From: Chitinophagaceae bacterium
GTDB lineage: Bacteria; Bacteroidota; Bacteroidia; Chitinophagales; Chitinophagaceae
Direction: 5' to 3'
Length of the DNA: 42,914 bases
Assembly: GCA_004322425.1 (NCBI GenBank)
Contig: SCVJ01000052.1
Coordinates: forward strand, 1 to 42,914
This document shows, in pieces, positions 1 through 4,741 of this stretch; positions within the stretch are counted from its first letter, which is position 1; each line of letters opens with the position of its first letter. A program made the position numbers and the translations under genes. Under the pieces are notes generated by a model that was not told the DNA's origin, ran no database searches, and worked only from the letters and a program-made list of their open reading frames with translations.

Positions 1-1136
1 CCATCTTCGGGTCTAAAGCCTGTTGCATCCGTTTCAGTAACTACACGATGAACCAAATAAGGAGCTAAAAATCCGTCCTCAATTCCTTGCTTTAAACTGT
101 AGATGTAAAGCGGATTTCCAAAATATGCGTAAGTGTCTTTGTTGTCGTCTCTTAATGGCGTAGCCGTTAAACCAATTTGAACTGATGTATTGAAATAATC
201 TAAAACTGCTCTCCAATTACTGTCGTCAGTTGCACTTCCTCTGTGGCACTCATCAATTAAAATCAAGTCAAAAAAGTCTCTTGGTAATTTTCTAAATGCT
301 CCTGTTCGGTTGCTGTCCTCTGCTAAAGATTGGTAAGTAGAAAAATAAACTTCTCTGCTACTTGGCAAACCTTCTTCGGGAACTAAACATCTTGCATCAC
401 CAAAAACTGCAAAGTCTTTGGCGTGTGGGTCGGAAACTAAAATGCTTCTGTCTGCAAGAAATAATATTTTTGGTCTGCGATGTTCGCCTTTGATGTTCCA
501 ACGGTTGTTCCAAAGTTTATAAATGATTTGAAAAGCAATTGTTGTTTTTCCTGTTCCAGTCGCAAGAGTTAATAATGCTCTTTTCTTTCCCTCTAAAACT
601 GCTTTAACGGCTCGGTTAATTGCAATGGTTTGATAATACCTTTCTGGCTTGTTTGGTATTGGTAAAAATGGTTTTAAAAATGTTTCTAAAATTTCTGTTT
701 TAATTGGTTCAGCTTGGTTTAATCTGTTCCAAAGTTCTGTCGGTGTTGGGTATTTTGAAACTTTTGTTTCAAGTCCAGTGATAAAATCAAATTCTAATAT
801 TTCAGTTCCATTTGTCGAGTAGGCAAATTTTAGTCCGAGTATTTGAGCATAGTCTTTTGCTTGTTGGATGCCGTCAGCAGCCAACTTGTATTTTTTCTTT
901 GCTTCTACAATTGCAATCGGAAAGTTTTGTGAATAGCGAAGCAGGTAGTCAAAGCGTTTCGCTTTTTTTCTTCTTGCTTTTCTTCCTATCACAATAATTT
1001 TACCGTCCGTAAAAGTCCGTTGTTCAAGGATTAACTCGTCTGTCCATTGGCTTTCATACAGTTTTGGCAATACTTCCTTTCGGCATGTATCTGCTTCGCT
1101 GTCGTGGTCGTCAATATGTATAGTTTTATCACTCAT
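1..1136 (-). CDS. hsdR: Type I restriction endonuclease R subunit (HsdR), 5' part
   Basis: The reverse strand is open from an ATG at 1136 to the left edge of the window, giving the first ~378 residues with no stop. The N-terminal region carries an HsdR-type PD-(D/E)xK nuclease signature: RFDY (D63), then IVEAKKK (E78, K80) and a downstream QQAKDY motif. A superfamily 2 motor follows: Walker A ATGTGKTT (~192-199), DECH box (~295-298) and motif III TATP (~324-327). HsdR cleaves DNA after ATP-driven translocation on unmodified DNA, together with HsdM and HsdS, which would have to lie off the left side or elsewhere. It lies downstream of a tyrosine recombinase in the same orientation, behind a 390-bp repeat-rich gap, which suggests an accessory, possibly mobile locus. 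The family is clear; integrity of the missing C-terminus cannot be judged. Confidence 0.9.
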   Translation of the reverse strand, partial: MSDKTIHIDDHDSEADTCRKEVLPKLYESQWTDELILEQRTFTDGKIIVIGRKARRKKAKRFDYLLRYSQNFPIAIVEAKKKYKLAADGIQQAKDYAQILGLKFAYSTNGTEILEFDFITGLETKVSKYPTPTELWNRLNQAEPIKTEILETFLKPFLPIPNKPERYYQTIAINRAVKAVLEGKKRALLTLATGTGKTTIAFQIIYKLWNNRWNIKGEHRRPKILFLADRSILVSDPHAKDFAVFGDARCLVPEEGLPSSREVYFSTYQSLAEDSNRTGAFRKLPRDFFDLILIDECHRGSATDDSNWRAVLDYFNTSVQIGLTATPLRDDNKDTYAYFGNPLYIYSLKQGIEDGFLAPYLVHRVVTETDATGFRPED

Positions 1137-1187
1137 TTACTCGTCATAAAATAGTTTGTCAAAATACGTCTTTTTATTGGTGCGTTG

Positions 1188-1260
1188 GCAAAAAATGGCT
1201 CTTTTGGTTTTGCGAAGGGTCGGCTTTTGTGTTGAGCAAAACCAAATGTGCCATTTGTGC
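1188..1260. repeat. Long imperfect inverted repeat between recombinase and hsdR
   Basis: Two arms of about 25 nt (1188-1213 and 1236-1260) pair around a 22-nt loop. The inner stem TTTGGTTTTGC / GCAAAACCAAA is perfect over 11 bp. A 3x3 internal mismatch follows, then AAATGGC / GCCATTT over 7 bp, and weaker pairing outward. It has no U-tract like a terminator. It sits 52 bp upstream of the hsdR start. It may be a folded recombination site, a mobile repeat or an RNA element; the function is not known to me. Confidence 0.6.
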
Positions 1261-1289
1261 GGCTGGCTAAAATTGTTTTTAAAAAATGT

Positions 1290-1347
1290 GCGGTGGAAAA
1301 AAAATAAAACACGAAGCGTTGGGCTGTCGTGTCGGAAAAAAGTCCGC
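1290..1347. repeat. Second nested inverted repeat in the recombinase-hsdR gap
   Basis: ACACGA (1309-1314) and TCGTGT (1327-1332) form a perfect 6-bp stem with a 12-nt loop. GCGG (1290-1293) and CCGC (1344-1347) can close it from outside, separated by A-rich tracts. It lies next to the longer palindrome at 1188-1260, so the gap contains back-to-back foldable segments. The individual stems are short and could partly be chance. Confidence 0.4.
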
Positions 1348-1407
1348 TGTTAAGTTTATATGTTGTCCTGTCGTTTCGATAATTTTCTGTTCGTTTAATG
1401 GTTGTTG

Positions 1408-1530
1408 TGTCGCGTTACTCTTGCCTATAACATTTATTATGCGCTACTAATGTACAAATAATAGCGTGTTTTACGCTAAATCTATATGAAACGTGCGTTT
1501 TTGATTTTTACCTGTCGCGCATTTTATAAC
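1408..1530. repeat. Candidate recombination-site repeats just downstream of the recombinase gene
   Basis: TGTCGCG followed by TATAAC occurs twice: 1408-1414 with 1426-1431, and 1513-1519 with 1525-1530. The second copy overlaps the last codons of the recombinase. Read on the reverse strand, both begin GTTATA and continue to CGCGACA. Between them lie two small inverted repeats: TAGCGT-gtttt-ACGCTA (1462-1478) and AAACG-tg-CGTTT (1489-1500). Arm-spacer-arm architecture beside a tyrosine recombinase is what a core crossover site could look like, but no recombination product is visible to prove it. Confidence 0.4.
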
Positions 1531-2711
1531 AGCTTGTCCAAAGGTGATTGTATTTTGCTCAACTGTTTTTTACTTACGTGTGTATAAATGTTTGTAGTTG
1601 AAAGGCTGCTATGCCCAAGCAATTCTTTTATACTTATTAAATCGGTACCCTGCTCCAATAAATGGGTAGCAAACGAATGCCGTAAAGCATGGATGCTTCC
1701 TTTTTTTGTTACGCCTGCTTTCGCTTTTGCTTGTTGTAATACTTCTTGGGTGCTCCGTGTGCTGTATTGCTCACCATATTGTCCTTCAAATAACCAAGCC
1801 TTTGGTTTATATGCTATAAAATATTCACGCATCAGTTGTAGTAATTTCTCTGATAACATTACTTGTCTATCCTTTTTGCCTTTTCCCTGCCTTACAGTTA
1901 TAACCATTCGTTTGCTGTCTATATCCTTCAGCTTCATGTTCACGATTTCGCTTACCCTTAATCCGCAGGCATAAGCTAAGCACAGCATAGTTTTGTGTTT
2001 AAGGTTTTTCAATGCAGTTAAAATATTTTTTACCTCTTCTTCCGCAAAAACAGTCGGCAGCTTCCATTCCTTTTTAGCACGGGGCAAATCATATACTTCT
2101 CTGGGAAGATTAAGCAACTGCTCGTAAAAGAATTTTATTGCATTTATAAGCTGGTTCTGAATGGTGCTGCTCCACTTTCCGCTATTTCGGTATGCAACCA
2201 AAAAATCCATTATCTCATATTTTGTGATAGTAGAAGGCTTGCGTTCAGGAAAATAATTAAGGAATACAACGAACCAATTCGTATAATTCTGAATAGTGTT
2301 GCTGCTGTAATTTTTCAGGCGCAGTAATTCAATATAGGCTTTCAACGCTATCGCATGCTGCTTTTGTGCAGGCATCATCCTTTCAGTTGTCCCTCCTAAA
2401 GGGAGAAACACTTCGGGAGTCATTGATTCAGGATGTGCTGATGTATTGACGGGGAGGGTGCTTATTAACTTGCTGTTATTTCTTTCCTCTAATTGAGTTT
2501 TCAGTTTCGATATATCAACTTCCCCAATACCTTTTACCTTTTCTTTCAGCAATTCAACAACTTGTTTATTTAAATCAAAATGCCACTGTCTATTACTGTG
2601 GCTCCATCTTGCTCCGGGTATATTGCGTACAATAGAATTCAGTTCCTTATTATAAGCAAAATCAGCAAACAGCCTTTCTTTACCTTGATGTTCCCGTATG
2701 AATAAAATCAT
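1524..2711 (-). CDS. Tyrosine site-specific recombinase with extra N-terminal domain
   Basis: The C-terminal half has the full tyrosine-recombinase set. Numbered in the longer open frame that begins 11 codons upstream (at 2744), these are R263 (GLRVSE), K288 (QGKGKKDR), H352 and R355 (HALRHSFA), H378 (LLGHSS) and nucleophile Y387 (IYTHV). A SAM-like core-binding domain precedes it (~125-215). Ahead of that is an additional ~85-residue region with an ARWSHSNRQWHF stretch not seen in XerC/XerD. I prefer the ATG at 2711: a TATGTTTG -7 box at 2742-2749 overlaps the longer start, and MILFIREHQ is a cleaner N-terminus. The ending KIQSPLDKLL resembles that of integron integrases, but the IntI-specific insertion before the HxxR box is absent. 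Target site and host element are unknown. Confidence 0.85.
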   Translation of the reverse strand: MILFIREHQGKERLFADFAYNKELNSIVRNIPGARWSHSNRQWHFDLNKQVVELLKEKVKGIGEVDISKLKTQLEERNNSKLISTLPVNTSAHPESMTPEVFLPLGGTTERMMPAQKQHAIALKAYIELLRLKNYSSNTIQNYTNWFVVFLNYFPERKPSTITKYEIMDFLVAYRNSGKWSSTIQNQLINAIKFFYEQLLNLPREVYDLPRAKKEWKLPTVFAEEEVKNILTALKNLKHKTMLCLAYACGLRVSEIVNMKLKDIDSKRMVITVRQGKGKKDRQVMLSEKLLQLMREYFIAYKPKAWLFEGQYGEQYSTRSTQEVLQQAKAKAGVTKKGSIHALRHSFATHLLEQGTDLISIKELLGHSSLSTTNIYTHVSKKQLSKIQSPLDKLL

Positions 2712-2741
2712 GATTGTGTTTTTAATTCTGCAATCACAAAG

Positions 2742-2749
2742 CAAACATA
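2742..2749 (-). promoter_or_regulatory. Bacteroidota -7 box upstream of the recombinase
   Basis: On the reverse strand this reads TATGTTTG, matching TAnnTTTG. No convincing TTG -33 box sits at the expected spacing. A start about 7 nt further would give a leader of roughly 25 nt to the ATG at 2711. Confidence 0.4.
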
Positions 2750-2902
2750 CAAAAAATCAAGATGATTAAAGTAACCTTCAGCAATACCCATGAAGCGAAA
2801 TGCTGCTATAAATAAATTAAGCGTCGAAGTTTCTCTGTGTTGGCGGTTTGTCTTCTAGGTCTTTTGCCGACTGCCGCTTTCTTTTCAATTACATTTGTGA
2901 AA

Positions 2903-4741
2903 ATGAAGCAGTTAAAAGCACTCCATAAATATTTTTGGAAATATCGTGTTCGATTGGGTGCCGGTGCTTTTTTCATTATCATTTCCAATTATTTTGCTGT
3001 TCTTGCCCCACAGATTACAGGGTTTGTTATCAACTTTGTTCAGCAAAAAATAGGAAATCAATTACCCCAAAATAATCGACCCAATTACGATTGGTTGGTT
3101 CAAAAGTTTATCAATAAAATAGAGCTAAATTTTTCAGATTCAGAAAAAGTTTTTACAGTTGTTATTCTTTGTGGCGTTACCATTTTACTGTTGGCATTAT
3201 TTCGTGGTTTTTTTATGTTCCTCATGCGGCAAACAATTATTGTAATGAGTCGGCATATTGAATACGATCAAAAAAATGAAATATTTCAACAATACCAGTT
3301 ATTGGATAATACATTTTATAAGTCACATTTTACAGGCGATTTGATGAGTAGAATTACGGAGGATGTAGGCAGGGTTAGAATGTTTACAGGTCCTGCCATT
3401 ATGTATTTTATCAATCTACTTGCTTTAATATCGTTGAGTGTTTTTTTTATGATAAAACGCGATGCGGTTTTGGCAACCTATGTTTTAGCACCCCTTCCAA
3501 TTTTAGCTATTATTATTTATTATGTCAACAATATTATTAATCTACGAAGTGAAAGAATTCAAATACTGCTGGCAGATTTAACCACTAATGCACAGGAATC
3601 TTATTCAGGTATTCGAGTAATAAAATCCTTTGTTCAAGAAAAAGCGATGTTGAATTTTTTTGATAAAAACAGCGAAGCTTATAAAAAGAATTCAATAGAT
3701 TTAGCAAGAGTGGAAGCTCTTTATTTTCCCTCCATTGCAATGTTGATAGGCATCAGCACTATACTTACAATTATGGTGGGAGGGTTGTATTATATTCAAG
3801 TTCCGGGAAGAATTGGACTTGAAGCACTTGTGGAATTTGTGATTTACATCAATATGCTTTCGTTTCCGGTTAGTGCCATTGGTTGGACGGCCAGCATGAT
3901 TCAACGAGCCGCTGCTTCACAAAAAAGAGTAAATGAATTTCTGCAATTAAAACCCGGCATTAAAAATTCAGCATCTGCAAGTAAAATAAAATTAGATGGC
4001 AGCATCCGCTTCAGGAATACTGAATTTATTTATGAGCAAACAGGGATTCAAGCTATTAAAAATTTTAATCTTACAATTAAACAAGGAGAAAAAGTGGCAA
4101 TAATAGGAAGAACGGGAAGTGGTAAAACAACCATTGCTCAGCTACTTTTAAGAATGTATGATACTACGAATGGGAGTTTAGAATTGAGTGGTGTTGATAT
4201 CAAAAAAATGGACTTGAAATTTCTGCGCGAACAAATCAGCTATGTGCCACAAGATGGTTTTTTATTTAGCGATACCTTAGCCAACAATATTAGATTTGGT
4301 TTCCCTTCTGCATCTAATAGTCAAATTGAAGCCGCATCCAAACTTGCAAGTCTTCATACTGAAATACTACATTTTCAAAACGGATATGAAACCGTGATTG
4401 GCGAAAGAGGAATAACTCTTAGTGGAGGACAGAAACAACGTGTGTCTATTGCTCGTGCATTAATTAAAAGTCCTCAGTTAGTAATTTTTGACGATTGCTT
4501 GAGTGCTGTGGATACGGCTACCGAAAGAAAAATAATCGACAATTTATATTCATATTTAATCGATAAAACTGCCATCTTTATTACTCATCGTGTTTTTTCA
4601 TTATTTCGATTCGATAAAATTATTGTGTTGGAAGAAGGCACGATTGTGGAAGAAGGTACGCATGATGAATTGATTTTACAAAATGGAGTTTATTCAGAAT
4701 TGTATAAACAGCAACAGGAAATTGAACACAAAATAAAATAG
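2903..4741 (+). CDS. ABC exporter half-transporter (MdlA/YheI-like; degenerate Walker B)
   Basis: A 612-residue fused permease-ATPase of the ABC-B exporter type. Six predicted membrane helices span roughly the first 330 residues. The nucleotide-binding domain carries Walker A GRTGSGKT (~402-409), Q-loop YVPQD, signature LSGGQKQR, Walker B LVIFDD (~526-531) and H-loop ITHR. I chose the ATG at 2903 because the sequence MKQLKALHKYFWKYR is a natural N-terminus; 22 upstream in-frame codons are probably untranslated. The residue after the Walker B aspartate is Asp, not the catalytic Glu (FDDCLSAVD). That is typical of the weak half of heterodimeric exporters such as E. coli MdlA or TM287. No partner half lies nearby. 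Substrate unknown. Confidence 0.88.
   Translation: MKQLKALHKYFWKYRVRLGAGAFFIIISNYFAVLAPQITGFVINFVQQKIGNQLPQNNRPNYDWLVQKFINKIELNFSDSEKVFTVVILCGVTILLLALFRGFFMFLMRQTIIVMSRHIEYDQKNEIFQQYQLLDNTFYKSHFTGDLMSRITEDVGRVRMFTGPAIMYFINLLALISLSVFFMIKRDAVLATYVLAPLPILAIIIYYVNNIINLRSERIQILLADLTTNAQESYSGIRVIKSFVQEKAMLNFFDKNSEAYKKNSIDLARVEALYFPSIAMLIGISTILTIMVGGLYYIQVPGRIGLEALVEFVIYINMLSFPVSAIGWTASMIQRAAASQKRVNEFLQLKPGIKNSASASKIKLDGSIRFRNTEFIYEQTGIQAIKNFNLTIKQGEKVAIIGRTGSGKTTIAQLLLRMYDTTNGSLELSGVDIKKMDLKFLREQISYVPQDGFLFSDTLANNIRFGFPSASNSQIEAASKLASLHTEILHFQNGYETVIGERGITLSGGQKQRVSIARALIKSPQLVIFDDCLSAVDTATERKIIDNLYSYLIDKTAIFITHRVFSLFRFDKIIVLEEGTIVEEGTHDELILQNGVYSELYKQQQEIEHKIK

Follow-up and report, generated by a model that had tools for sequence, protein, structure and literature searches.

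The region analysed here is probably the head of an integron-type platform, made up of a Bacteroidota integrase without the IntI insertion, an attI site and a first cassette that carries a restriction gene. The window is the whole 42,914-nucleotide stretch of contig SCVJ01000052.1 (assembly GCA_004322425.1; G000:C55 in our set), part of a Chitinophagaceae assembly of 2.24 Mb in 318 contigs. We favour the platform because related loci show arrays running in the direction of the integrase, an excess of attC-like sites over shuffled sequence (124 versus 7), covariation in their stems, agreement of the R'' box with its own cassette, and co-occurrence of sites and recombinase. The same cassette start after attC and attI-like ends, the best fold match of the recombinase (2a3v) and the conservation of a cassette leader with its promoter motif add to these reasons.

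Gene order in the window

A truncated hsdR, a 390-bp gap and a tyrosine recombinase all lie on the minus strand (Table 1), which bears out the claim of the first-pass annotation that recombinase, repeats and defence gene share one direction. The integrase-attI-cassette layout that it proposed is also supported, with a different assignment of the large palindromes. hsdR, a type I restriction gene, is incomplete, the contig end falling inside this first cassette gene. On the other side of the recombinase are an ABC transporter, a DUF3276 protein and glucose-6-phosphate isomerase.

Table 1 Features of the window, in order of position.
Feature	Position	Strand	Description
hsdR of the first cassette	3..1136	-	NCBIfam EcoAI-type R subunit 1e-152; PADLOC REase_I 3e-107
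Candidate promoter	1160..1191	-	TTG (1189-1191), 22 nt, TATTTTG (1160-1166)
Cassette leader with both large palindromes	~1177..1335	-	Conserved part of the gap query
Leader hairpin 2 (long palindrome)	1193..1256	-	Arms 1193-1213 and 1236-1256
Leader hairpin 1 (nested palindrome 1309-1332)	1297..1332	-	T run 3' on the coding strand; terminator-like
attI-like site	1421..1523	-	End GCATAATAAATG^TTATAGGCAA; position and motif common to many relatives
Predicted crossover G^TT, 5' end of the first cassette	1430..1431	-	By analogy with the boundary seen in other loci
Inverted repeat TAGCGT/ACGCTA	1462..1478	.	Inside attI; possible integrase box
Palindrome AAACGTGCGTTT	1489..1500	.	Inside attI; possible integrase box
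Tyrosine recombinase (array integrase)	1524..2744	-	First ATG at 2711; without the IntI insertion

The covariance model detects no attC in the window, because the first cassette runs past the contig end. The predicted R'' box of that cassette (CCTATAAC) was sought across the assembly, and only the window itself matched. The absent attC and the lack of a matching R'' elsewhere in the assembly count against the platform reading, as does the scarcity of sites in the source assembly, where the covariance model search gives a single good attC-like site, on C264 (E 6e-8), besides two weaker matches on C27 (E 0.002 and 0.006). An Rfam scan of window positions 1-3000 returned a single match, far under its gathering score.

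The recombinase is a relative of IntI

The recombinase matches Pfam Phage_integrase (3e-44) and SAM_4, and its catalytic residues are invariant among 20 relatives, in a structure alignment reduced from 29 rows to 20. Against NCBIfam it scores 217 bits with XerA_Arch and 211 bits with IntI, both below cut-off. The solved integron integrase 2a3v, which is also the first fold match of its AlphaFold model (mean pLDDT 80, pTM 0.55), aligns with it in two pieces and has 64 residues where the recombinase has 21. The IntI-specific insertion of roughly 40 residues is thus missing, a result that we count against the platform reading. The spacing from GKGxKxR to HxLRH is 65-68 residues in array integrases, that is, this recombinase and its array-heading relatives (measurable in 12 of 38), 65-73 in seven Xer proteins and 66-73 in four IS91-associated recombinases, as opposed to 106-107 in two IntI. 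The recombinase ends in SPLDKL, 2a3v in SPLSRL, and two IntI in SPLDAL and SPLDTL. Structure alignment, motif spacing and tail therefore confirm the first-pass observation that the protein ends like IntI but lacks the IntI insertion, and its description as a non-canonical IntI relative is supported.

In a tree of 56 rows, which included two IntI and left out L011, the 38 array integrases, a fragment linked to tet(X3) and a Falkowbacteria sequence sit together (85/83, open fork), and the two IntI form a group (97/85) with a Chloroflexi sequence and three of the IS91-type rows. A 100/100 branch splits eight cellular Xer rows from the 48 others, so that the array integrases do not group with cellular Xer; L053 and L054, initially labelled Xer, are placed among the 48. 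The array integrases are relatives of IntI and not IntI, and the tree falls short of establishing them as strictly monophyletic (85/83).

These results bear on two alternatives. An ordinary integron with IntI would agree with the attI, the attC arrays and the R'' rule, and NCBI names some array integrases 'site-specific tyrosine recombinase/integron integrase'. It is nevertheless extremely unlikely, since the IntI model stays under its cut-off, the insertion is missing and IntI groups with the IS91-associated recombinases, not with the array integrases. The identification of the integrase as IntI was already refuted by the missing insertion and the sub-cut-off score; the platform may work like an IntI integron. 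We give hardly any credence to a cellular Xer recombinase lying beside unrelated repeats, with the arrays being something else. The similar scores of the Xer and IntI models speak for this reading, but it conflicts with the 100/100 split from the eight cellular Xer rows, with the IntI-like SPLD tail, and with relatives that head attC arrays and co-occur with the sites.

The N-terminal domain of the recombinase (window 2532-2711, minus strand; ~60 residues) carries no Pfam name and is predicted to fold as strand-strand-helix-strand-strand-helix, with a pLDDT of about 88.

The attI-like site

In the window the attI-like end reads TAGCGCATAATAAATG^TTATAGGCAA, with G directly before the cut. In many relatives GCATAATAAATGTTAGTGGCAA or GCGTATATTTAnnnGTTRnnnGCAA lies ~50-130 nt past the stop codon and the sequences diverge thereafter, whereas the motif is missing at the loci of other relatives; loci whose recombinase match stopped before residue 395 were dropped from this comparison. 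An attI beside the integrase gene is indicated by this recurring end motif after the stop codon and by the finding of the same cassette start after attI-like and attC ends. The exact boundary letters of the window occur once in the assembly. The simple attI pattern discriminates weakly, with 28 of 43 loci matching it as compared to 231 of 860 random stretches, and this counts against the platform reading.

Two small inverted repeats had been pointed out in the gap; both are located as described and fall inside the attI-like site. Taken as a whole, 1440-1530 shows no folding beyond chance (z -0.8; 42 of 200 shuffles fold equally well). In the attI-like sites of close relatives the repeat units are different ones, which would fit integrase-specific binding boxes.

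Relatives head arrays of attC-like sites

GTTRnnnGCAA recurs downstream of the relatives' recombinases, mostly in the integrase direction, and most of the copies away from the integrase close a long imperfect hairpin that opens with YAAC. Using a detector that requires [CT]AAC ... CGTTR plus a stem, we obtained 124 sites in 44 loci (523 kb), some of them reverse copies or chance matches, compared to 7 in one mononucleotide shuffle per locus. Measured from AAC to GTT, the sites cluster at 121 nt and at about 185 nt, with 35 in the short class, 51 in the long class and 38 in neither. Removal of one near-duplicate and one reverse copy left 33 short sites; removal of one near-duplicate, one reverse copy and two non-sites left 47 long ones. 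Two-sided changes occur in 15 of 17 predicted pairs among the former and in 13 of 14 among the latter. The short sites reach a covariation score of 0.66, whereas shuffles give 0.16 and slid versions no more than 0.12. Since the sites were selected by their stems, the proportion of cells that pair is overstated. The relatives thus carry attC arrays with a conserved single-strand fold and little conserved sequence. The two length classes (alignments A1 and A2) differ by some 64 nt.

One such array can be followed in genome G373, in which 34 model matches extend over 76 kb, all in the integrase direction and with a median spacing of 1.3 kb, and 73 of 91 ORFs point the same way. Several relatives lie at contig ends with their 3' side outward, L043, L046, L042 and L050 having 76 to 290 nt left, as would arrays that break assemblies.

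Cassettes behave as units

Once circular, an integron cassette pairs its R'' box with its own 5' end. We compared 104 consecutive pairs of sites that had been detected without the R boxes. With at least 6 of 7 positions counted as agreement, R'' fits the start of its own cassette in 82 pairs (in 48 of them at every position), as opposed to one pair for the next cassette and five for a random cassette. At the level of sequence, such agreement is an integron signature. Genome G022, where the only recombinase match is Xer-like (E 7e-31), gave fits of 2, 2 and 4 of 7 in three pairs. Its loci L202 and L203, on one contig, hold attC-like arrays that resemble cassette clusters left without an integrase.

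Four genomes share one cassette start (92-96% identity over 200 nt), which stands twice after an attC and twice after an attI-like end. Comparison of the attC with the attI-like contexts gives 10-38% identity in the 60 nt upstream and 26-62% in the DNA from 250 to 450 nt downstream. In the attI-like cases, L133 (~4858) and L136 (~4767), the end precedes a leader-bearing cassette and no recombinase relative was found within the 10 kb examined.

By sequence comparison, cassettes join at G^TTRnnn, each having at its end a long folded attC whose R'' matches the 5' end of that cassette. The cassette would circularise and re-insert at attI or at another attC, and we infer that capture and excision are catalysed by the integrase.

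The large palindromes form a cassette leader

The first-pass annotation had drawn attention to palindromes throughout the gap, which we confirmed, with their arms located. The long palindrome has 21-nt arms that are 90% complementary and a 22-nt loop. The single-strand folding that had been proposed as a check was run as DNA on 1183-1265 (z -3.7 on the plus and -4.3 on the minus strand; 1 and 0 of 200 shuffles as good) and on 1286-1350 (z -3.6 and -3.7; 0 of 200), and both stretches fold better than shuffled sequence on both strands. As RNA, the entire gap 1137-1530 gives a z of -2.8, with 1 of 100 shuffles as good. On the coding strand, T runs follow each of the two large palindromes.

That these palindromes are themselves the recombination sites, as the first-pass annotation proposed in describing them as attC-like arms, is in our view very unlikely. 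A long imperfect palindrome near an integrase would suit such a role, and the L' arm in some attC sites is similar to its 3' arm CCCTTCGCAAAACC; on the other hand, the model scores it at only 7.1 bits (E 5), and no YAAC/GTTR boxes flank it. Elsewhere the palindrome sits inside cassettes, past a separate attC or attI. We therefore rejected the large palindromes as attC or attI, given their location 3' of the attC/attI boundary and 5' of the gene in other loci.

Instead, we assign both large palindromes to a leader of the first cassette, located between the attI boundary and hsdR. A 284-bp gap query matches in 34 of 195 family genomes (E up to 0.001; three candidates scored per genome), with 71-94% identity among the longer matches. 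Varied genes stand behind these copies, and the suggestion that the palindromes be sought beside other accessory genes was thus fruitful. All 28 other leader copies examined have an ORF of at least 60 codons starting at most 160 nt downstream. A strict cassette-start box (GTTR ... GAC) lies at most 160 nt upstream of 18 of the 28, as compared to 6% of random stretches, and a looser box upstream of 22 of the 28, as compared to 29%.

Over 29 rows, 94.5% of cells retain the hairpin 2 helix; 9 of its 19 pairs show two-sided changes, and loop and arms contain invariant letters. The hairpin 1 helix is kept in just 55.8% of cells over the same number of rows, which counts against the leader reading. 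Of 29 leaders, that of the window among them, 22 are followed within 110 nt by a TAn(n)TTTG box, which we take to be the Bacteroidota promoter consensus, versus 2.7 expected from shuffles; with TTG 15-25 nt before it, the count is 10 of 29 versus 0.2 expected.

Structure and promoter motif together suggest that the leader acts as a transcription insulator or terminator joined to a promoter. It would stop read-through from upstream and supply the gene's own promoter, and the first cassette of the window would therefore be expressed wherever it lands. An alternative that we regard as unlikely, though by no means negligible, accepts the platform and takes the leader for a regulator-binding site, a small RNA or a remnant of cassette formation. 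The leader is far more conserved than the genes behind it, hairpin 2 has invariant letters in its loop and arms, and hairpin 1 is poorly conserved, all of which would suit this alternative; the promoter motif after 22 of 29 leaders and the placement just before start codons argue instead for the terminator and promoter.

The first genes behind the leaders belong to restriction-modification in 11 of the 20 tested with Pfam: three HsdR, two N6-methylases including HsdM, MmeI, GmrSD, a C5-methylase, a type III methylase, an Eco57I-like enzyme and an HsdS-like fragment. These 20 were taken from the 28 leader ORFs, leaving out L134, L136, L139, L141, L150, L203, L128 and L129. None of 20 first genes of the G373 array (from 23 distinct first ORFs) is of this kind (Fisher p 1e-4), a contrast that is suggestive only, G373 being of another family. 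A blastn search for the leader in plasmid or phage records gave no match.

Sites and recombinase co-occur across Bacteroidota

We built a covariance model from the short attC-like sites and used it to survey genomes. The model matches at least 67 of 98 family genomes (E up to 0.001; at most 32 candidates scored per genome) and at least 120 of 247 Bacteroidota genomes (E up to 1e-6; at most 13 candidates per genome), so that about half of the sampled Bacteroidota genomes carry attC-like sites. The recombinase (E up to 1e-40) is found in 81 of the same 247: with site-bearing genomes again counted as at least 120, 69 have both, 51 sites only, 12 the recombinase only and 115 neither (Fisher p 2e-16), counts that are not independent because the genomes share ancestry. 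The corresponding numbers in the family (sites in at least 67) are 33, 34, 2 and 29.

Two of these figures count against the platform reading, namely the recombinase missing at the cut-off in 51 of 120 site-bearing genomes, itself a minimum, and the sites missing in 12 of 81 recombinase-bearing genomes. The short-site model matched in 0 of 24 genomes reached via distant Xer-like loci of other groups, an empty answer that alone shows little.

Relation to known systems

The Bacteroidota platform resembles IntI integrons in having an integrase followed by attI, a one-direction cassette array ending in folded attC with YAAC/GTTR boxes, and an R'' complementary to the cassette's own 5' end. Unlike in IntI integrons, the array integrase lacks the IntI insertion and stands apart in the tree, the attC-like sites cluster at two lengths, and the cassettes can carry a shared leader with a promoter motif as well as whole restriction operons. 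Cassettes of typical integrons are promoterless. With its attI, attC arrays and R'' rule and without the IntI insertion, the platform is integron-like, a variant outside the IntI type.

Other tyrosine recombinases come close in part. Those adjacent to IS91 share with the array integrases the absence of the IntI insertion, the SPLD tail and their neighbourhood in the tree, but adjoin an IS91-family transposase. In the tree, the TnpF/XerD-like fragment next to tet(X3) is placed among the array integrases (51.8% identical, residues 178-405), but it is shortened and adjoins an IS91-like transposase in the plasmid examined. Archaeal XerA and cellular XerC and XerD have the same catalytic fold and residues, whereas the Xer rows are without the SPLD tail and apart in the tree.

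Published surveys describe integrons as nearly absent from Bacteroidetes; in the article on IntegronFinder 2.0, In0 elements are the earlier finding and a complete integron, in Salinibacter, the later one, with very few integrons in Bacteroidota (PMC9024848). Another article names Bacteroidota among the phyla with integrons (PMC8618304). Integron detection leans on the IntI-specific domain (PMC9668308), and a platform without that domain would therefore be missed. Our literature search, in which few subscription papers and no bioRxiv preprints were included, found no title, abstract or passage that describes these arrays.

If active, the platform would explain the cassette movement of defence operons and of several Bacteroidota resistance genes, and would show that the IntI insertion is dispensable in this clade. 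Cassette formation would become testable via the shared leader, since leaders common to cassettes with different genes would offer a handle on how new cassettes form.

Resistance genes on plasmids

We lean, with some reserve, towards a wider interpretation: a second, phylum-wide kind of Bacteroidota integron with insertion-less integrases, whose cassettes can carry an insulating promoter leader, which moves restriction and defence operons and from which lnu(H), blaOXA-347 and tet(X3) originated before reaching plasmids. On a Chryseobacterium plasmid (NZ_CP041688.1), the recombinase is followed by five model matches in its direction, between annotated genes. An Empedobacter brevis plasmid (NZ_CP043637.1, L220) carries arr, a site, lnu(H) and a second site in succession, the two attC-like sites flanking lnu(H) lying at L220 457-597 and 1514-1655 (E 6e-25 and 1e-25). 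Behind lnu(H) the R'' reads TACCGCT (before AAC) and complements the start of its own cassette, GTTAGCGGTA, at all 7 positions. In a Myroides albus plasmid (NZ_CP102755.1, L217), blaOXA-347 stands between two attC-like sites on its own strand (minus-strand sites at 1604-1747 and 2602-2805), and a third site is at 315-457.

On an Acinetobacter baylyi plasmid (NZ_CP104735.1, L209 2967-5117), a shortened recombinase relative and an attI-like end precede tet(X3), and behind the gene lies a partial attC-like site (E 1e-7), truncated where the record stops. The integrase fragment, the attI-like end and the partial attC are the only features that would mark tet(X3) as a cassette. As a perfect cassette it was rejected, since on visual comparison its R'' (GGCTACT) fits the boundary upstream at only 4 of 7 positions. 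The sequence that follows tet(X3) has matches in 89 plasmid records.
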